NCBI GenBank assembly: GCA_903822435.1
Contig: CAIJPE010000378.1
Span: 1 to 64,000, forward strand
Source: an uncultured beta proteobacterium
GTDB lineage: Bacteria; Pseudomonadota; Gammaproteobacteria; Burkholderiales; Burkholderiaceae_C
DNA: 64,000 nt
Direction of reading: 5' to 3'
This document shows positions 5,938 through 64,000 of the stretch, one piece after another (the stretch's first letter is position 1; every line of letters starts with the position of its first letter). The position numbers were made by a program, and so were the translations under genes. Under the pieces are notes generated by a model, which was not told the DNA's origin, did not search any database, and saw only the letters and a program-made list of their open reading frames with translations.

Positions 5938-6996
5938 ATGACCTGGCAGATCCTCCCTGGCAACAGCTTCGCCGAACACGCGAGTGCGTGGGACGCGGTG
6001 CAAAGCGCGACGACCCGCATACCCTTTCTCGAGTCCGCCTTCATCGCGCCCTTGCTGGTGGAATTCGGCACGGGAAAGGAATTGCTGGCGCTGCACGCCG
6101 ACGGCAACGGCTACGACGCAGCGACCATCGTGCGGCCGGCGGGCCGGGGCATGTGGGAGACCTTCCAACCTTCGCAGCTGCCGCTGGGGCCGTGGCTGGC
6201 TGGCCCGCGGGATGCGCTGCCCGAGCACTTGAAGAGCCTGCTGCGCGCCCTGCCGGGCCTGGGCATCGGCCTGGGCGTCACCCAGCTCGACCCGCTGCTG
6301 CAACCGGCCCCTTCGGCCGCGCGCGACGTGGCCACGCTGGACTACGTCCGCACGTCCTACATCGAGATCGAGGGCACCTTCGATGCCTACTGGGATTCGC
6401 GCGGCAAGAACCTGCGGCAAAACACCCGCAAGCAGCGCAACAAGCTGCAGGCCGAGGGCCTGGAGCCGGCCCTGGAATGCCTGACCGAGCCGGGCCAGGT
6501 CGCCGACGCGCTGCGCGACTACGGCCTGCTGGAGACTGCTGGCTGGAAGGCGGGCACCGGCACCGCCATCGACCCCGACAACGCCCAGGGGCGCTTCTAC
6601 AAGCGCATGCTGGAGAGCTTCTGCGCCATGGGCCGTGGGCGCATTTACCGCTACCGCTTCGGCGGCAAGGTGGTGGCCATGGACCTGTGCATCGACAACG
6701 GGGCGGTGGTGGTCGTCCTGAAGACGGCCTATGACGAGTCGTTCCGGGCCGTATCGCCCTCCACGCTGATGCGCTACGAGGAATTCAACGCCTGGTGGAA
6801 CGAAGGCCGCTACAAGCGCATCGAGTTCTACGGCAAGACCATGGAATGGCACACGCGCTGGGCCGAGCACGAGCGGCAGCTCTACCACGCCACGGCCTTC
6901 CGCTGGCCCTGGATGCGCACCCTGGTGGACCAGGTCAAGCGCCGCGGCACGGACAAGGCGGCCGGCTCCGCGCAGCCACCGGTCGAGGCGGCCTGA
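5938..6996 (+). CDS. GNAT/FemAB-like (BioF2-type) acyltransferase
   Basis: 352 residues. The C-terminal half has the BioF2/FemAB-like acyltransferase pattern: YIEIEGTFDAYWDSR, KNLRQNTRKQRNKL, the ETAGWKAGTGTAI segment, YRFGGKVVAMDLCID, and the closing YGKTMEWHTRW. No signal peptide or membrane helix, so cytoplasmic. Members of this fold transfer acetyl or aminoacyl groups to sugars or peptides. It sits just before a polysaccharide flippase, which fits modification of a lipid-linked sugar. A second protein of this fold occurs at 41284-42321 in the core operon. The 105-base gap upstream shows no clear promoter. Confidence 0.85.
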   Translation: MTWQILPGNSFAEHASAWDAVQSATTRIPFLESAFIAPLLVEFGTGKELLALHADGNGYDAATIVRPAGRGMWETFQPSQLPLGPWLAGPRDALPEHLKSLLRALPGLGIGLGVTQLDPLLQPAPSAARDVATLDYVRTSYIEIEGTFDAYWDSRGKNLRQNTRKQRNKLQAEGLEPALECLTEPGQVADALRDYGLLETAGWKAGTGTAIDPDNAQGRFYKRMLESFCAMGRGRIYRYRFGGKVVAMDLCIDNGAVVVVLKTAYDESFRAVSPSTLMRYEEFNAWWNEGRYKRIEFYGKTMEWHTRWAEHERQLYHATAFRWPWMRTLVDQVKRRGTDKAAGSAQPPVEAA

Positions 6997-50905: not shown

Positions 50906-51577
50906 ATGAATCAGGACAAGTCCCCGTCGTCCCCGTCAAGTGAAGCGGTCGACCCCGCAACAGCCGTGGCGCCCAAGCCTGCCGTGAGCCGTCGGGCCCT
51001 GCTGCGTGCAGGGGCTGCCGCCACGCCCGTGCTGCTCACGCTGGCCAGCGGTCCGGTGGCTGCGGCCGGCAGCAGCTGCACCGTGGCTTCTTCGTTCGTG
51101 TCGGCCGCGACCTTCGCCAGCCGCAATCCCGGGCAGACCTATGTTCAGTGCGCCAGCATGGGCCCCAGCGACTGGCTTTCCTACCATTGCCGCAGCCCGC
51201 AGCTGCTGGCCCAATCGCCTTACCGCATCATCCTCAGCCAGCCCGTGCGGCTGCGCTTGTGCGACACGGGCAACCACACCTACAACAACATGCAGTGCGC
51301 GGAACTGATGGTGAACGACAACCACGGCATTGCCAGCGCCGGGCCGGTGGCGGTGCTGCAGAACCTCGTCTCGCTGGCCCTGTCCCTGGATGCGTCGCCT
51401 TCGCTCATCACGAATGGCGGTTCGCTGAACAAGGCCTACCTGATCGGCGTGTGGAACAACTACAAGACCTCCGGCGGCTACCACTTGCCTGCCAGCGGCA
51501 TCAACTGGTCGGAGGCCCAACTGCTGACCTTCCTGAAGGCCCTGCAGCAACCGGTCCCGATCAACAGCATCGTCTGA
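50906..51577 (+). CDS. Tat-signal secreted protein of unknown function, linked to an HprK-like kinase cassette
   Basis: 223 residues from ATG 50906, chosen because GGAGAG lies eight bases upstream; GTG 50900 would sit on top of it. A Ser/Pro-rich leader of 30 residues precedes SRRALLRAGAAATPVLLTLA and the cleavage-like VAAAGSS, a twin-arginine signal. The mature part has five Cys (SSC, VQC, YHC, RLC, MQC) and ends with a conserved-looking segment YLIGVWNNYKTSGGYHLP then INWSEAQLLTFLKAL. Not recognised. It heads a four-gene cluster and is a plausible substrate or effector of the PqqD-like and kinase-like proteins that follow. Confidence 0.85.
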   Translation: MNQDKSPSSPSSEAVDPATAVAPKPAVSRRALLRAGAAATPVLLTLASGPVAAAGSSCTVASSFVSAATFASRNPGQTYVQCASMGPSDWLSYHCRSPQLLAQSPYRIILSQPVRLRLCDTGNHTYNNMQCAELMVNDNHGIASAGPVAVLQNLVSLALSLDASPSLITNGGSLNKAYLIGVWNNYKTSGGYHLPASGINWSEAQLLTFLKALQQPVPINSIV

Positions 51578-51584
51578 CCACGGC

Positions 51585-51887
51585 GTGAGCCCACCCGCCG
51601 CGCCGCGCGGAGTGCTCTGCACCTCCCCTGATGTCCAGGTCAAGCGGTGGGGCGAGAGCGAAGCGGTGGCCTACTCGGGGGCCAACGCGAAGACACACGT
51701 CGTCAGCGAAGCGGCCGCTCACATTCTGATGCTCGCCGCGGGCCAAGGCCTTTCCGAAGCCGAACTGGCGCTCACCTTCTGGGCTGACGAATCGCCCGAA
51801 GCCGCGGTCGCCGCCGAAGACCAGGCGCTTCTGCGCGACACCGTCGATGGCCTGCTGGCCGCCGGCCTGCTGAAGCGCCGGGTGTGA
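51585..51887 (+). CDS. PqqD-family peptide chaperone, HPr-rel-A system
   Basis: 100 residues from GTG 51585, eight bases after the Tat-protein stop; the true start may be a few codons on (GTG 51612). The pattern VQVKRWGESEAVAYSGANAKTHVVSE, then AAHILMLAAGQG and a C-terminal helix with LRDTVDGLLAAGLLKRRV, is a PqqD-like winged helix of the type that binds leader peptides. Resembles the family I know as TIGR04353. The stop overlaps the kinase start (GTGA). Confidence 0.85.
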   Translation: MSPPAAPRGVLCTSPDVQVKRWGESEAVAYSGANAKTHVVSEAAAHILMLAAGQGLSEAELALTFWADESPEAAVAAEDQALLRDTVDGLLAAGLLKRRV

Positions 51888-52828
51888 CCACGCTCCTCAG
51901 CCAACTAGATCCGCGCGACGTTCGCGCCGCCTTGCGCGGGCCGACAGGCTTGCGGGTCCGCACAGGGCCCATCACGTCGCGCATCGTGACACCGCTGCCC
52001 GAAGTGGGTTCGGCCATCCAGACGCTCTATGCGGACTACCCGGTGGCCGATGCCGACAGCTTCGTCGACTTCCACGTCGGCGTCCGGCGCCCGCCCAATG
52101 CCAGGGCGTTCTGGCGCAAACAGGTGGTCTTCGAACTCGAAGGCCAGGCGCCGTTCAACCCGCTGCCGGGGGACCAGGGCTTCCCGCTGCTCGAGTGGGG
52201 CATGAACTGGTGCACCTACGCCCATTGCCATCAATACCTCATCCTGCACGCGGCGGTGCTCGAGCAGAACGGGCGGGCGCTGATCCTGCCCGCGCCTTCG
52301 GGTTCGGGCAAGAGCACGCTGTGCGCCGGCCTGCTCTTCAACGGTTGGCGCCTGTTGTCCGATGAACTGACGCTGATCGACCCACGGGACGGGATGGTCG
52401 TGCCCATGCCCCGGCCGGTGAGCGTGAAGAACGCGTCCATCGAGGTTTTGTCGAAATTCGTGCCGGGCTTGCGGTTTGGCTCGCGTGTTTCCGAGACCGT
52501 CAAGGGCGTCGTGGCACACTTCAAGGCACCCGCCGACGCAGTAGCCCGGGCCGGCGAAAAGGCGATTCCTGCCTGGATCGTGATGCCGAAATACGTGGCG
52601 GGCCTGCCGGCCACGTTGCGGCCGCAGCCGAAGGCCCGGGCCTTCATGGGCCTGATCGAGAATGCATTCAACTATGACGTCTTCGGTGCCGATGGGTTTG
52701 CCCTGCTGGGCTCCGTGATCGACCGCAGCGCATGCTTCACTTTCGAGTACGGCCACCTGCAAGAGGCGATCGACCGCTTCGCGCAACTTTCGCAGGCAAC
52801 CACGAACCCGCGCGACAACCAGCCCTGA
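51884..52828 (+). CDS. HprK-related kinase A
   Basis: 314 residues from GTG 51884. Walker A APSGSGKST at residues 137-145, preceded by LILHAAVLEQNGRALIL, followed by LLSDELTLIDP, the HprK-like metal-binding region. The rest diverges from true Hpr kinase, and no canonical HPr gene is present nearby. It matches the family I know as TIGR04352. From context it may phosphorylate the neighbouring Tat protein or a small carrier before export; this is inference. Confidence 0.9.
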   Translation: MTTLLSQLDPRDVRAALRGPTGLRVRTGPITSRIVTPLPEVGSAIQTLYADYPVADADSFVDFHVGVRRPPNARAFWRKQVVFELEGQAPFNPLPGDQGFPLLEWGMNWCTYAHCHQYLILHAAVLEQNGRALILPAPSGSGKSTLCAGLLFNGWRLLSDELTLIDPRDGMVVPMPRPVSVKNASIEVLSKFVPGLRFGSRVSETVKGVVAHFKAPADAVARAGEKAIPAWIVMPKYVAGLPATLRPQPKARAFMGLIENAFNYDVFGADGFALLGSVIDRSACFTFEYGHLQEAIDRFAQLSQATTNPRDNQP

Positions 52829-52871
52829 GGCCGCCGGGCCGGGCCCGAGGGCCCTGTCTGCCGCACGGCAT

Positions 52872-53996
52872 GTGGGGGTCCACACCTTGAGCCGGCTCCT
52901 TGCCGGTGGTGTGGTGACGGCGCTGACCGACCCCGCCACCATCGCCACGGCATCGAACGGCGAACTGTCGCGGCTGGTCCAGGAGGGTCGCCGCACCGGC
53001 CTGCTCGGACGCATTGCCACGCGCGCCAAGGCCACGGGTTACCCGCCCGGATGGCCACCCGCCATGAAAGCCCATCTGGACGCCGCACTGCGCGTGTGCC
53101 GGGCACAGCAGGCGGAAATTCGGCGCGAAACCGCCTTCATCTCGCAGGCGCTGTCCACGCTGGGCGCGCCGATCATCCTGCTCAAGGGCGCCGCCTACGT
53201 GGTGGCCGACCTGCCTGCCGCCGACGGTCGGGTGTTCGGCGATATCGACATCATGGTGCCCAAGGAAGCGATCGTCGAAGCCGAGTCGCTGCTCATGATG
53301 AACGGCTGGCTCAGCACGCACCAGACCGACTACGACCAGCGGTACTACCGCCAGTGGATGCACGAGTTGCCGCCCATGCAGCATGTGCATCGCGGCACGG
53401 CGCTCGACGTGCACCACGCGATCCTGCCCGAGACGGCACGACTGCGCCCGAGTTCGCGGCTGCTCTTCGAGCGGGCCGTGCCGGTGGCCGGATGGCCCCA
53501 CGTGCATGTGCTGGCACCCGAAGACATGGTGCTGCACAGCATGACGCACCTGTTCATGAACGACGACATGCGCTATGCGCTGCGCGACCTGTCCGACCTC
53601 GATCTGTTGCTGCGCCACTTCAGCGGACGGCCGGGCTTCTGGTCGGAACTGGTGGCCAGGGCTCAGGCACTGGACCTTCGGCGTCCGCTCTTTTACGGGT
53701 TGCGCCAGACGCAACGTGTCCTGAAGACGCCCATTCCCGAAAGCGCGCTGGCCGACACGGAACCCTTCGGCCCCGAGGGGGCTGCCCGCCCGTTGATGCG
53801 AGCGATCTGGGATGAAGCGCTGCGGGCCCAGCATCCGGACGAGCAGGCATGGGCCTCGCGCGCAGCGTTGTTCGCGCTGTATGTCAGGGGCCACTGGTTG
53901 AGGATGCCTCCCCTGATGCTGGCCCGCCACCTGGCCACCAAAGCCCTTCAACGTCCCGAACAGGATGCCCAGAGCGCGCGACAGCCCGGCGTCTGA
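52872..53996 (+). CDS. Nucleotidyltransferase family protein, HprK/PqqD-linked
   Basis: 374 residues from GTG 52872. The nucleotidyltransferase core shows IILLKGAAYVVADL then RVFGDIDIMVPKE, with the metal-binding Asp pair, and a later LDVHHAILPETARLRP. C-terminal helical part includes LAPEDMVLHSMTHLF and RDLSDLDLLLRH. No membrane helices. The family (NTP_transf_5-like) regularly accompanies the HprK-like and PqqD-like genes. The nucleotide and target are unknown. Confidence 0.88.
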   Translation: MGVHTLSRLLAGGVVTALTDPATIATASNGELSRLVQEGRRTGLLGRIATRAKATGYPPGWPPAMKAHLDAALRVCRAQQAEIRRETAFISQALSTLGAPIILLKGAAYVVADLPAADGRVFGDIDIMVPKEAIVEAESLLMMNGWLSTHQTDYDQRYYRQWMHELPPMQHVHRGTALDVHHAILPETARLRPSSRLLFERAVPVAGWPHVHVLAPEDMVLHSMTHLFMNDDMRYALRDLSDLDLLLRHFSGRPGFWSELVARAQALDLRRPLFYGLRQTQRVLKTPIPESALADTEPFGPEGAARPLMRAIWDEALRAQHPDEQAWASRAALFALYVRGHWLRMPPLMLARHLATKALQRPEQDAQSARQPGV

Positions 53997-59352: not shown

Positions 59353-62142
59353 ATGATCAAGCCAACTTCGATGTCGGGCGTCACCTGCACGCTGGTGCTG
59401 GCCGGTGCGCTCGCGCTGTCGCAGGCGTCCTGCAGTTCCGACAGCCCGCAATCGCTGATCGCGTCGGGCAAGCAGTTCGTGGCGAAGAAGGACCCGCGCT
59501 CGGCGGTGATCCAGTTCAAGAGTGCCCTGCAGCTCGATCCGCAGTCCGTCGAAGCGCGCTACCTTCTCGGCCAGGCCATGCTCGACTCCGAGGACCCGAC
59601 AGGCGCGGCCGTCGAACTGGCCAAGGCCTTCGACCAGAAGTACGACCCGAACAAGGTCCTTCCTTCGTTGGCGCGAGCCATGTTGCTGGCCGGCGATGAC
59701 GAAAAGATGACCACGCTGTACGGCGACGTCACCCTGGACGACAAGACCGCCATGGCCGCCTTGAAGTCCACCGTGGCTGCGGGCTGGGGCCTGCAGAACA
59801 AGCTGGCCAAGTCCGAAGCCGCCATCGCCGCGGCCCTGCAGGCCGTGCCCGACTACGGCCCGGCGCTGCTGCTGCGGGCCCGGTTCGTGGCGGCGCGACA
59901 CGATGCGGCAGGGGCCATGGCCATGGTGGACCAGGTGCTGGCCCGCGAGCCCAATCTCTATGAGGGCTGGCAGATCAAGGGCGAGATCCAGCAGGCGCTG
60001 CTGAAGAACCCCGACGCGGCGCTGGAGTCGTTCCGCAAGGCCCTGTCGCTGGAACAGGCCTACGTGCCGGCGCACATGGCCATCATCGCCATGCGCCTGG
60101 GCGCCAACGACATCGCCGGGGCCAAGGCGCAGGCCGAGCAGTTGCGCAAGGTCTTGCCCAAGCATCCTCAGATGATGTTCGTCGATGCGCAGATCGCCTT
60201 CGGCGACCGCGACGTGAAGAAGGCGCGCGAGCTCTCGCAGCAGCTCATGCGGCTGGCGCCCACCCACCAGGGCGTGCTGCAGTTGGCCGGTGCGATCGAG
60301 GCGCAAAGCGGCTCGCTGGTGCTGGCCGAGACCTTCCTGAACAAGGCGCTGCAGCTCAATCCCGACCTGCCGCTGGCCCGCCGGCTGCTGGCCCAGACCT
60401 ACCTGAAGCTGGGCCAGCCGACCCGGGCGATGGAAACGCTCAAGCCGCTGCTGGCAGCCGACCCCCCCGACGGCCAGGCCCTCTCGCTGACCGGCGACGC
60501 CCAATTGCAGCTGGGCGACACCGATGGCGCCGAGCGCTCGTTCCAGCAAGTCGCCAAACTCGATCCGAAGGACACGCGGGCCCAGACCGCCATCGCCCTG
60601 GGCCAGCTGGCCCGCGGCAACACCGATGCCGCCTTCGCCCAGCTGGAGGCCCTGGCCCGTGGCAGCAAGGACGTGGTGGCCGAGCAGGCGCTGGTCAGCC
60701 TGCGCCTGAAGCGCAAGGAATACGACGCTGCGCTGAGCACGGTCGACGCCATGCTCAAGAAGCTGCCCGACGACGCCACGGTGATGGACCTGCGCGGCCG
60801 GGTGCTCTTGGCGCGCAAGGACTATCCGGGTGCGCGGGCTGCTTTCGAGCAGGCCCTGAAGACCGACCCGACCCTGCTGCTGGCCACCTCCAACCTGGCC
60901 GCGGTGGACCTCATCGAGAACAAGCCCCAGGACGCCGAGAAGCGCTTCGAGTCGGCCATTCAGGCCGAACCGCGCAACTACTACGCCCGAATGGCACTGG
61001 CCACGATGCGCGAGCGCAACGGCGCGCCGGTCGAGGAAGTCCGCAAGATCCTGGAAGAGGCCGTCAAGGCCGCGCCGTCGGAATCGGCACCGCGGCTGCA
61101 GCTCATCGAACTGCTGCTGCGCAAGCGGCTGTACAAGGACGCGCTCTCGGCCGCCCAGGAGGCCGCGGCGGCGCTGTCCAACGACGTGCGCGTGCTGGAC
61201 GCCGTCGGGCGCGCGCAGATGCAGGCCGGCAGCCCGGAGCAGGCGATCGTCACCTTCCGTCGGTTGGCCGGCCTGGACCCCAACTCCGCGGGCACCTACC
61301 TGCGGCTGGCCGACGTCTACCGGGCCACCGGCAAGCGGGACAGCGTCGAGAGCTCGATCCGGAAGGCCCTGGAAGTCGACCCGGACCTGGCCGTGGCCCG
61401 GACCTCGCTGGTGGACTTCCTCTTGTCCAGCAATCGCAGCAAGGAAGCGCTGGAGGTGGCCCGCGCCGAGCAGCAGCGCCGGCCCAAGAGCGACTCCGGC
61501 TACGTGCTGGAAGGCGCGGTGCATCTGCGGGCCAAGGCCACCGATGCGGCGCTGCAGGCTTACCGCAACGGGATCGCCGCGGTCGGTGAAGGCTCAGGGC
61601 TGCCCACGCTCCTGTTCGTGGTGCTCAACCGCCAGGGCCGCGCGCCCGAAGCCGAGAAGTTCGCGCTGGGCTGGCTCAAGGACCACCCGGCGGACGTGGG
61701 CGTCGAATACCAGCTGGCCCTGGCCGAACTGGGACGCGGAGATGCCCAGCAGGCCGAAGCGCGGTTGCGCCGCGTGGTGTCCCTGCGCCCGCAGAATGCC
61801 CTGGCCCTGAACAACCTGGCGGCAATCCTGGCCCGCCGGGGCGATCCGGCCTCCGTCGAACTCGCCCGGCGGGCCGCCGACCTGGCGCCGGAGACGGCCG
61901 AGGTGATCGACACCCTGGCCATGGCGCTGGCGTCCCAGAAGCAGTTCGACAAGGCCATGTCCGAACAGAAGCACGCAGTGGAACTCGATCCCAAGAACGC
62001 CAATCTGCGCCTGAACCTGGCCCGGATCGCCCTGCTATCCGGCGACAAGGAATTGGCGCGCAAGGAAGTCGAACGCCTGGAAGCCCTGGGGCCCGCCTAC
62101 GCCCGGCAGGGCGACGTGGCTAAATTGAGGAGCAGCCTTTGA
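59353..62142 (+). CDS. prsT: PEP-CTERM system TPR lipoprotein PrsT
   Basis: 929 residues with AAGGGAG seven bases before ATG 59353. Signal and lipobox LALSQASC (Cys27), then TPR repeats over almost the full length, for example AVIQFKSALQLDPQSVEARYLLGQA and AGARAAFEQALKTDPTLLLA-type units. Fits the family I know as TIGR02917. Probably an outer-membrane-anchored periplasmic scaffold. Follows prsR by 40 bases and is the likely operon member below the two-component pair. Confidence 0.95.
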   Translation: MIKPTSMSGVTCTLVLAGALALSQASCSSDSPQSLIASGKQFVAKKDPRSAVIQFKSALQLDPQSVEARYLLGQAMLDSEDPTGAAVELAKAFDQKYDPNKVLPSLARAMLLAGDDEKMTTLYGDVTLDDKTAMAALKSTVAAGWGLQNKLAKSEAAIAAALQAVPDYGPALLLRARFVAARHDAAGAMAMVDQVLAREPNLYEGWQIKGEIQQALLKNPDAALESFRKALSLEQAYVPAHMAIIAMRLGANDIAGAKAQAEQLRKVLPKHPQMMFVDAQIAFGDRDVKKARELSQQLMRLAPTHQGVLQLAGAIEAQSGSLVLAETFLNKALQLNPDLPLARRLLAQTYLKLGQPTRAMETLKPLLAADPPDGQALSLTGDAQLQLGDTDGAERSFQQVAKLDPKDTRAQTAIALGQLARGNTDAAFAQLEALARGSKDVVAEQALVSLRLKRKEYDAALSTVDAMLKKLPDDATVMDLRGRVLLARKDYPGARAAFEQALKTDPTLLLATSNLAAVDLIENKPQDAEKRFESAIQAEPRNYYARMALATMRERNGAPVEEVRKILEEAVKAAPSESAPRLQLIELLLRKRLYKDALSAAQEAAAALSNDVRVLDAVGRAQMQAGSPEQAIVTFRRLAGLDPNSAGTYLRLADVYRATGKRDSVESSIRKALEVDPDLAVARTSLVDFLLSSNRSKEALEVARAEQQRRPKSDSGYVLEGAVHLRAKATDAALQAYRNGIAAVGEGSGLPTLLFVVLNRQGRAPEAEKFALGWLKDHPADVGVEYQLALAELGRGDAQQAEARLRRVVSLRPQNALALNNLAAILARRGDPASVELARRAADLAPETAEVIDTLAMALASQKQFDKAMSEQKHAVELDPKNANLRLNLARIALLSGDKELARKEVERLEALGPAYARQGDVAKLRSSL
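62127..62132 (+). promoter_or_regulatory. GAGGAG ribosome site at the end of prsT
   Basis: GAGGAG followed six bases later by TTG 62139, which overlaps the prsT stop and is in frame with the second TPR gene. It may direct a coupled TTG start 15 codons before ATG 62184. Confidence 0.4.
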
Positions 62143-62183: not shown

Positions 62184-64000
62184 ATGAACACCCCCGCCCT
62201 GCGGCGCTGGATCCTGGCCGCCGCGGTCGCGTCGCTGTCACTGGGCATCAGCGGCTGCAACCGCGGGCCCTCGGAAGCCGAACTGCTCAGCTCGGCCAAG
62301 GCCTTGATCGCCAAGAAGGACGGCAAGGGCGCGATCATCCAGCTCAAGAGCGCGCTGCAGAAAAACACGTCGCTGGCCGAAGCCAGGCTGCTGCTGGGCC
62401 AACAGCTGCTCGAATCCGGCGACGCCGTGGCCGCGCAGGTGGAGTTGCTCAAGGCGCAGGAACTGCAGGTACCCGACGAGCAGGTCGTGCCCGACCTCGC
62501 GCGGGCCATGCTCCAGCTGGGCGAGGAAGCCAAGATCATCTCGCAGTACGGCACGCTCCAGCTCAAGACGCCGGCCGCCGCAGCCGACCTGCAAACCTCG
62601 CTGGCCACCTGCTACGCCATCCAGAACGACCGCGACCGCGCAGACCGGGCCGTCGCCAGCGCACTGGCCGCCGTGCCCGACTACGGCCCGGCGCTCCTCG
62701 TGCAGGCCCGGTTGAAGGTGGTGGGCGGCGATGTCGACGGTGGCCTGGCCCTGCTGGACGGCGTGTTGCAGCGCGACCCCGCCGATGAGCGGGCCGGCTT
62801 GCTCAAGGGCGAGCTGCTGCGCCAGGCCAAGCGGGACATGCCAGGCGCCGTGGAGGCCTACCGCAAGGTGATCGCCGCGCACCCCACCTCGGTGCCGGCC
62901 CAGGCCGCGCTGCTCGGGGTGCTGCTCGAACAGGGCAATCTGCCCGAGGTCCGCACCCAGTTCGCCGCTCTGCAGAAGTCGGCGCCGGACAACTCCGAGA
63001 CGCTGTACTTCCAGGCCCGGCTGGCGTTCATCGACAAGGACTACAAGACCACGCGCGAGATCACCGAGCGGCTGCTGAAGGTGATGCCGGAGAACGTGCG
63101 GGTGCTGACGCTGGCCGGTGCTGCCCAGTACCGCATGAAGCAGTATCTGCAGGCCGAGTCGCTGCTGGCGCACGCGCTGAAGAACGCGCCCCGCCAGGTG
63201 CTGACCCGGCAGCTGCTGGCCCAGACTTACCTGCGCTCTTCGCAGGCCGACAAGGCCATCGAGGTGCTTCAGCCCATGGTCGACAGCGAAGCTGCCGACG
63301 GCGCCAGCCTGGCCATGGCCGGCGAAGCCTATCTGCAGCTGGGCGACACCAAGAAGTCCGAAGCCGCGTTCCAGCGGGCCCTGAAGGTGGCCCCCGGGGA
63401 CACCACCGTGCGCACCGCGGCGGCCGTGGCCCAGATGGCTCGCGGCAACACCGGCGCGGCTGCGGCGGAGCTCGAGTCCATCACCAGCGGCGAGGGCGAA
63501 GGCGAAACCCGCGCCGACCTGGCGCTGGTCACGGCGCGCCTGCGCCAGAACGACACCGCAGGGGCCCTGAAGGCCATCGACGCGCTGGTGCGCAAGCAGC
63601 CCAACCAGGCCATGCCGCTGAACCTGCGCGGTCGCGTGCAGCTCCTGGCCAAGGACACCGCCGGCGCACGAGCGAGCTTCGAGGCCGCCCTGGCCAAGGA
63701 ACCCGACTACTTCGCCTCGGTGGCGAGCCTGGCGGCCATCGAGCTGGCCGACGGCAACGCCGACGCCGCGCGCAAGCGCCTGGAGGAATTTCGCAAGCGC
63801 CAGCCGCGAAGCTGGCAAGGCGCCCTGGCCCTGGCCGAGCTGAGCGCACGAACCGGCGCGCCAGCGGCCACGGTGACCGCGATGATGCGCGACGCCGCCA
63901 AGCTCAACCCGTCGGAGCCTCGGCCCCACCTGCTGCTGATCGAACGCTTGCTGGGCAGCGCCGATCCGAAGGCGGCACTGCCCGCGGCCGAAGATGCCGC
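62184..64000 (+). CDS. prsT: Second PrsT-like TPR lipoprotein (3' end cut by window edge)
   Basis: First 605 residues of a paralogue of the preceding gene. From ATG 62184: NTPALRRWILAAAVASLSL then lipobox GISGC (Cys25). In-frame ATG 62169 and TTG 62139 (with a better ribosome site) are alternatives. The TPR body follows the upstream protein segment by segment, for example AVPDYGPALLVQARL against AVPDYGPALLLRARF, and VLTRQLLAQTYLRS against LARRLLAQTYLKL. The ending lies beyond the window. Confidence 0.92.
   Translation, partial: MNTPALRRWILAAAVASLSLGISGCNRGPSEAELLSSAKALIAKKDGKGAIIQLKSALQKNTSLAEARLLLGQQLLESGDAVAAQVELLKAQELQVPDEQVVPDLARAMLQLGEEAKIISQYGTLQLKTPAAAADLQTSLATCYAIQNDRDRADRAVASALAAVPDYGPALLVQARLKVVGGDVDGGLALLDGVLQRDPADERAGLLKGELLRQAKRDMPGAVEAYRKVIAAHPTSVPAQAALLGVLLEQGNLPEVRTQFAALQKSAPDNSETLYFQARLAFIDKDYKTTREITERLLKVMPENVRVLTLAGAAQYRMKQYLQAESLLAHALKNAPRQVLTRQLLAQTYLRSSQADKAIEVLQPMVDSEAADGASLAMAGEAYLQLGDTKKSEAAFQRALKVAPGDTTVRTAAAVAQMARGNTGAAAAELESITSGEGEGETRADLALVTARLRQNDTAGALKAIDALVRKQPNQAMPLNLRGRVQLLAKDTAGARASFEAALAKEPDYFASVASLAAIELADGNADAARKRLEEFRKRQPRSWQGALALAELSARTGAPAATVTAMMRDAAKLNPSEPRPHLLLIERLLGSADPKAALPAAEDA

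Follow-up and report, generated by a model that had tools for sequence, protein, structure and literature searches.

The four-gene cassette studied here lies at positions 50906-53996 of the window, by which we mean the whole stretch of 64,000 nucleotides analysed (positions 1 to 64,000 of contig CAIJPE010000378.1, GenBank assembly GCA_903822435.1, from an uncultured beta proteobacterium). Its closest described counterparts belong to lasso peptides, to the LPP peptides of Bacillota and to a pair of protein families known by name. In the lasso systems of paeninodin and pseudomycoidin (PadeK, ThcoK, PsmK, PsmN), the HprK-like kinases PadeK and PsmK phosphorylate the precursor at its C-terminal serine, addition of a hexose to the phosphoserine is attributed to the nucleotidyltransferase PsmN, and lasso kinases carry a His-Lys-Asp-Asp motif (PMC9266682). 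LPP systems combine a discrete RiPP recognition element (RRE; RiPP, ribosomally synthesized and post-translationally modified peptide), an HprK-like kinase, LppK, that phosphorylates Ser3 behind the leader cleavage site, and a nucleoside triphosphate (NTP) transferase; their precursors are 35-200 amino acids long with a conserved N-terminus and a variable C-terminus, and their clusters are often near capsule loci (PMC13381572). In the HPr-rel-A system of NCBIfam, a kinase family (TIGR04352) and a PqqD family (TIGR04353) are named as a set, as the first-pass annotation of this DNA had noted; the entry names give no substrate, and a literature search, with most subscription journals outside its reach, found no paper assigning a substrate to the set or linking RREs to the twin-arginine translocation (Tat) pathway. 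We propose, at a probability of roughly 60%, that the cassette tailors in the manner of a RiPP system and that its substrate is an entire protein exported by Tat.

All four genes are on the forward strand and tightly packed: a Tat-leader protein (50906..51577, 223 amino acids), a PqqD-like protein (51585..51887), an HprK-related kinase A (51884..52828) and a nucleotidyltransferase (52872..53996) follow one another with a gap of 7 bases, a 4-base GTGA overlap and a gap of 43 bases. This is the arrangement first described, later starts being possible at 51612 for the PqqD-like gene and at 52911 for the nucleotidyltransferase gene, and the identities of both enzymes also stood: the kinase scores 370 bits against TIGR04352 (cut-off 200), and the last gene product scores 184 bits against PF14907 (NTP_transf_5). 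Kinase residues H122, K143, D160 and E161 have a conservation of 1.00 among 162 kinases, and we take them to correspond to the motif of the lasso kinases. The window kinase is thus a member of the HPr-rel-A system by score, and the PqqD-like gene is in the correct place beside it, although its product falls under the curated cut-off; no NCBIfam family covers the Tat protein.

Compared with the LPP systems, the cassette has the same three kinds of protein and a candidate serine placed, like the phosphorylated one, just past the leader cleavage site. It differs in its leader, which is a Tat signal that resembles the LPP leader (YxxPxVLxHQxIxFETxxS; PMC13381572) only in a P-x-L-L piece, and in its substrate, a larger, Cys-containing protein of Pseudomonadota. 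Among the genes called at 44-64 kb of the window, where those identified are PEP-CTERM and exopolysaccharide (EPS) genes, there is neither the SipW-like peptidase nor the MsbA-like exporter of LPP clusters, and neither the macrolactam (lasso) cyclase nor the B2 protease, the search being confined to that region. The cassette matches the peptide systems in its kinds of enzyme, in having an RRE and in where the candidate serine lies. Read most simply, the RRE would bind the Tat signal, S62/S66 would be phosphorylated, the phosphate decorated and the protein exported by Tat. In this scheme the PqqD-like RRE would bind the Tat signal peptide, probably at its hydrophobic P-x-[VIL]-L-T-L part, and present the precursor to the kinase, which would phosphorylate one or both of the invariant serines just past the signal cleavage site; the NTP_transf_5 protein may then add a sugar or a nucleotide to the phosphate, before Tat exports the modified protein and signal peptidase cuts off the leader. 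What we have in hand is the linkage of the genes, an RRE fold in a structural model, conserved catalytic residues, nearly invariant serines and an agreement between kinase and substrate class; from these we infer leader binding, phosphorylation, the phosphosite, the second modification and their purpose.

The substrate link between the Tat protein and the cassette is well supported. Searching 61 genomes with the window protein gave 12 matches, the window included, all 12 within ~3 kb of an HprK-related kinase A, and nearly all further cassettes without a detectable homologue had some Tat-leader protein in the same slot. From a kinase-alignment scan of the GTDB genome collection came 80 loci with the kinases most like that of the window (the best 80 of 342 relatives), a set that favours substrates of the window kind, called class A below. 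A co-directional Tat-leader protein was found at 79 of the 80 with a profile seeded from 48 of these same loci, a PqqD-type match at 78 (the weakest at E 0.01) and a nucleotidyltransferase at 77, the three remaining contigs ending soon after the kinase. An even sample of the class, 369 genomes, held a kinase above cut-off in 41; here, with only the best 8 and best 6 candidates per genome scored in the two underlying searches, a profile match lay within 3.5 kb in 39 of the 41, on the same strand each time (39/39); 31 of these matches were strong (E <= 1e-12), and most of the 8 weak ones spanned the leader alone. As for the two kinases without a match, G319 has its start close to the edge of a contig, and at G151 a Tat protein of another class (class B, below) was recognized by eye. 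Sampling the phylum (398 genomes) gave 61 with a kinase, and 34 of the 40 loci examined among them had a Tat-leader protein, four identified by eye. The 80-locus set and the samples share some genomes, and their counts are not summed. A C-terminal pattern gave four spurious Tat picks (L050, L074, L333, L348), at which the true Tat proteins were read separately.

The linkage also holds from the side of the Tat protein. That its homologues occur mostly without the kinase set, the outcome named beforehand as damaging to the idea, is not what we found: 31 of the 36 strong profile matches in the class sample adjoin a kinase. Four of the other five are copies of the core domain in larger extracellular proteins, which in 4/4 cases lack both the leader and the serine motif; the fifth (G356) is a leader-bearing paralogue, the kinase of its genome being on another contig. 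We call the domain homologous to the class A core the 'GYWK' domain. It is seen at the C-terminal parts of the L237, L239, L241 and L242 proteins, with no kinase nearby; in L237, the only one compared with Pfam, it falls in no family. The INWSEAQ segment, which the first-pass annotation proposed to test for co-occurrence with the kinase, was rejected as a marker because it is part of this domain, which is also present in kinase-free proteins.

The Tat protein begins with an n-region (residues 1-28), followed by R29-R30 and a hydrophobic region that reads P41-V-L-L-T-L-x-S; its mature part contains C58-x3-S62-x3-S66, C82 and a helical C-terminal domain. Judged by its sequence it is a Tat substrate, predicted to be exported by TatABC, and neither it nor the relatives tested (5 in NCBIfam, 4 in Pfam) fall in any family of these databases. 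In an alignment of 87 non-redundant class A proteins, the twin arginine, followed by a hydrophobic stretch, is present in all 87, S62 and S66 in 86 each, C58 in 85, C82 in 83 and L159 in 82; next, the start Met aside, come S48 in the leader (75) and W90 (74). The next most conserved Ser columns after S62 and S66 stand at 86%, in the leader, and 66%. The set is without L057 and L115 (incomplete), L063 (wrong start), L049 and L050 (score <60), L048 (missed by the profile) and near-identical rows. A second MAFFT alignment, of 72 of the 87 with 17-44% identity to the window protein, has M1, R29, R30, C58, S62, S66, C82 and L159 at 90% or more. Of 98 class A rows taken unaligned, 87 agree with a pattern of fixed spacing (C, 2-3 residues, S, 3 residues, S/T), and S-x3-S is visible by eye in 8 of 9 class A proteins outside the alignment, from the class and phylum samples (L243 has Thr in first place and L330 lacks the Cys); L328, assigned to class A by eye, has a different motif spacing. 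The two serines, the candidate phosphosite, are encoded at 51089-51091 and 51101-51103 within codons 59-66 (51080..51103, forward strand), and in the family their median distances past the signal end, set at residue 53, are 8 and 12 residues.

Five Cys are indeed present in the mature part, family conservation being limited to C58 and C82. A lipoprotein reading of C58 was rejected because the conserved segment lies at no constant distance from the end of the signal. The long Ser/Pro-rich n-region, once regarded as unusual, proved ordinary: the ~28 residues of the window protein fall within the 19-35 that 88 of the 94 class A rows show when starts are picked by our script, and the region is poorly conserved. 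A model of the Tat protein (mean predicted local distance difference test, pLDDT, 70.4; predicted template modelling score, pTM, 0.65) places S62 and S66 on a helix of modest confidence (residues 61-73). Compared with the PDB, this model gave no match better than E 3, so no function follows from structure, and a sequence search of the PDB gave matches only at E 0.12 or worse, mostly nanobodies. Profile comparison of the kinase with the Tat protein found nothing.

By sequence the label 'PqqD-like' is weak, with 29.5 bits against TIGR04353 (cut-off 35) and no Pfam match, PF05402 having none in the whole genome. The model of the protein (pLDDT 89.6) does, however, have a winged-helix RRE fold, and its top Foldseek matches in the PDB are TbiB1-leader, TruD, ThcOx and TfuB1-leader, several of them RREs complexed with leader peptides; the best is TbiB1 with its leader (E 8e-4). 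Sequence-profile matches to the same proteins are weak (TfuB1, E 0.005; TbiB1, E 0.026). On the strength of the model, we regard the protein as a probable discrete RRE and a putative leader-binding adaptor, whose target may be the Tat signal peptide.

That the leader might be the part recognized is suggested by a comparison of substrates, which fall into two classes with a common leader and different cores. Class B proteins, mostly from the phylum sample, lack the two-serine motif of class A and end in C-x2-S-[FLI] plus a few residues (for example SCWSSLAT, SCWASF and TCFASLQMPRG), so that they have, like the lasso peptides, a conserved Ser near the C-terminus (PMC9266682); class A has no lasso-sized core. 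Of 45 Tat proteins outside class A, 40 have C-x2-S-[FLIVMAY] within ~15 residues of the end. They comprise 24 of the 25 from the phylum sample, which were picked by leader only (L328 having gone to class A by eye), 10 of the 12 among relatives and 6 of the 8 from the class sample. The background of the pattern is 11 of 550 called genes, slot genes among them. In this second branch the modified serine would be the C-terminal one. Cores can be tiny, ~12 residues in L224 and ~21 in L352. A tree of the 162 kinases, 149 of them labelled A or B (18 labels, 5 of these A or B, being hand-set), requires one A/B change, compared with a mean of 36.8 and a minimum of 31 in 200 shuffles. Since the tree switches class once, kinase lineage and substrate class go together.

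In the window, the twin-arginine signal spans codons 29-53 (50990..51064, forward strand), and the proposed RRE-binding segment lies in its hydrophobic part, TPVLLTLASGP. Class A profile matches in class B proteins fall mainly over the Tat signal, and a leader model trained on class A gives class B a median of 17.7 bits, compared with 4.7 bits for Tat signals of related genomes. The succession proline, two aliphatics, then Thr, Ser or Ala occurs in the hydrophobic part of 10/10 class B, 2/2 other and 32/96 class A leaders, the window's included, and in 0 of 25 control signals (30 loci less 5 dropped by a filter, some of the 25 being doubtful as Tat signals). For a [VIL][LM]T[L]xS-type pattern the counts are 71 of 96 leaders in class A, 6 of 10 in class B, 1 of 2 among the others and 1 of 25 among the controls.

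Several observations count against the proposed tailoring of a Tat protein. In the 80-locus set, L112 has neither a PqqD match nor a Tat-leader protein; in the phylum sample, 6 of the 40 loci have a kinase and no adjoining Tat protein, and five of these six also lack a PqqD match. Among the 61 profile matches of the class sample, 46 are within 3.5 kb of some listed HprK-like match and 15 are not, namely the four 'GYWK' proteins and the G356 paralogue described above, five short Tat peptides of a kind described below, three ordinary Tat proteins and two that could not be placed. Leader scores overlap, the class B minimum (8.1 bits) being lower than the maximum of the generic Tat controls (16.7 bits), and the proline motif is found in only the 32 class A leaders counted above. 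The leader motif of most discrete lasso RREs, [Y/W]xxPx[L/V/I/A/F/Y] (PMC13381572), is incomplete in the window, with Ala in place of Tyr/Trp. Class B was labelled in part by the serine pattern itself, and stable co-inheritance of the operon could alone explain part or all of the agreement between kinase tree and substrate class. Finally, an indirect role of PsmN is not excluded (PMC9266682), and deletion of lppN, the NTP transferase gene of an LPP system, caused no detectable change in a heterologous host (PMC13381572). The first-pass claim of a leader-guided modification before Tat export keeps the support of linkage, RRE fold, two alternative serine motifs and a kinase tree that tracks class, and loses that of the n-region and INWSEAQ as specific features and of a general EPS link.

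The cassette might instead modify the Tat protein elsewhere or otherwise, at another residue or by making and attaching a cofactor, the serine motif of class A being structural or a binding site. The framing of this motif by the conserved C58, C82 and W90, as in a disulphide-held site, speaks for such an explanation, as does the lppN result. We nevertheless consider it unlikely: class B proteins do without the class A motif and conserve a different, terminal serine while their kinases are of the same family, Ser is the sole residue type besides Cys common to the two motifs, and the four kinase-free homologues of the core domain are without the serine motif.

A more doubtful idea is that the Tat protein is a partner and not a substrate, the enzymes making or modifying something else, such as an EPS component, on which it acts outside the cell. 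The surroundings of the cassette, in an XrtA/EPS locus that near relatives share, lend this some weight. As first annotated, it lies between an XrtA substrate and the EPS priming enzyme: the upstream neighbour is a PEP-CTERM protein (PF07589, 28 bits, cut-off 20.7; TIGR02595, 23.8 bits, cut-off 16), and downstream come the XrtA-system EPS priming enzyme (TIGR03013, 493 bits, cut-off 393), PrsK, PrsR and PrsT. Core EPS genes are, however, within 6 kb of just 31 of the 80 nearest cassettes (some contigs being short), so that we rejected an EPS-specific function as a general one, and with it the broad tie to exosortase/EPS loci first suggested; even for the window cassette a specific EPS role is no more than a possibility. 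Nor does a partner role suit cores that vary widely, down to those of L224 and L352 with little beyond leader and serine motif, or the presence of an RRE, which implies a peptide leader. That the Tat gene adjoins the kinase cassette as an ordinary neighbour, by accident of the EPS locus, has nothing beyond that location in its favour and is scarcely credible given a Tat protein at 79 of 80 nearest loci and beside 39 of 41 class-sample kinases, also at EPS-free loci.

Returning to the tailoring of an exported protein, what appears new is that RRE-guided, HprK-type modification would act on a protein exported by Tat; by name, the families of the kinase and of PqqD were already known as a set. 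The proposal gives a substrate, a modified residue and an export route to a kinase family that is named but has no assigned reaction in the entries and papers found. If it is right, many secreted proteins should carry a covalent mark that depends on the kinase, and the fields of RREs and twin-arginine translocation would be joined. Loosely put, some small bacterial peptides are tagged on a serine, and here a protein may be tagged before export. We give even odds to a wider statement: that across Pseudomonadota the Tat signal peptide doubles as a RiPP leader, the RRE reading the signal, the HprK-like kinase phosphorylating and the PF14907 protein decorating one conserved serine of any core, from ~12-21 residues to a folded domain, and Tat exporting the product, with the RRE perhaps delaying export until modification has taken place. 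If so, secreted phospho- or phosphoglyco-proteins of this make would represent a new type of RiPP-like product. TorD and other Tat proofreading chaperones are small proteins that bind a Tat signal until maturation is complete; their fold is not known to be related to that of an RRE, but the RRE of the cassette might play a proofreading-like role.

Weak profile matches also led to short Tat peptides of ~55-100 residues (L215:4587-4671 and 6223-6307; L216:6739-6820; L217:6420-6498; L219:5957-6038; L221:7002-7080; also L218, L220, L222 and L225), some loci having two copies. In all 11 peptides found by profile, the Tat signal contains Y-x-x-P-x-[VI] and is soon followed by Gly-Ser; a count of 12/12 for short leaders is circular and is set aside. 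A divergent HprK-like kinase is present at 5 of 9 of these loci. Beside the L216 peptides lies a PqqD protein (PF05402, 72 bits; best NCBIfam match the lasso PqqD chaperone, 45 bits, under its cut-off), and beside those of L221 a PF14907 protein. These peptides look like Tat-exported relatives of the LPP peptides and count in favour of the proposed tailoring.

Kinases at L314, L318, L337, L342, L343 and L345 have no neighbouring Tat-leader protein, and their substrate may be unlinked or different. Two Tat-leader proteins stand beside one cassette at L084 (4961-5548 and an upstream copy) and at L152 (8116-8760 and a second copy ~850 bases further), recalling RiPP clusters with several precursors. 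Further downstream in the window, the gene for a PrsT-type TPR lipoprotein (59353-62142) is followed by one with a similar-looking start (62184-63998) that reaches the window end, possibly forming a tandem pair.

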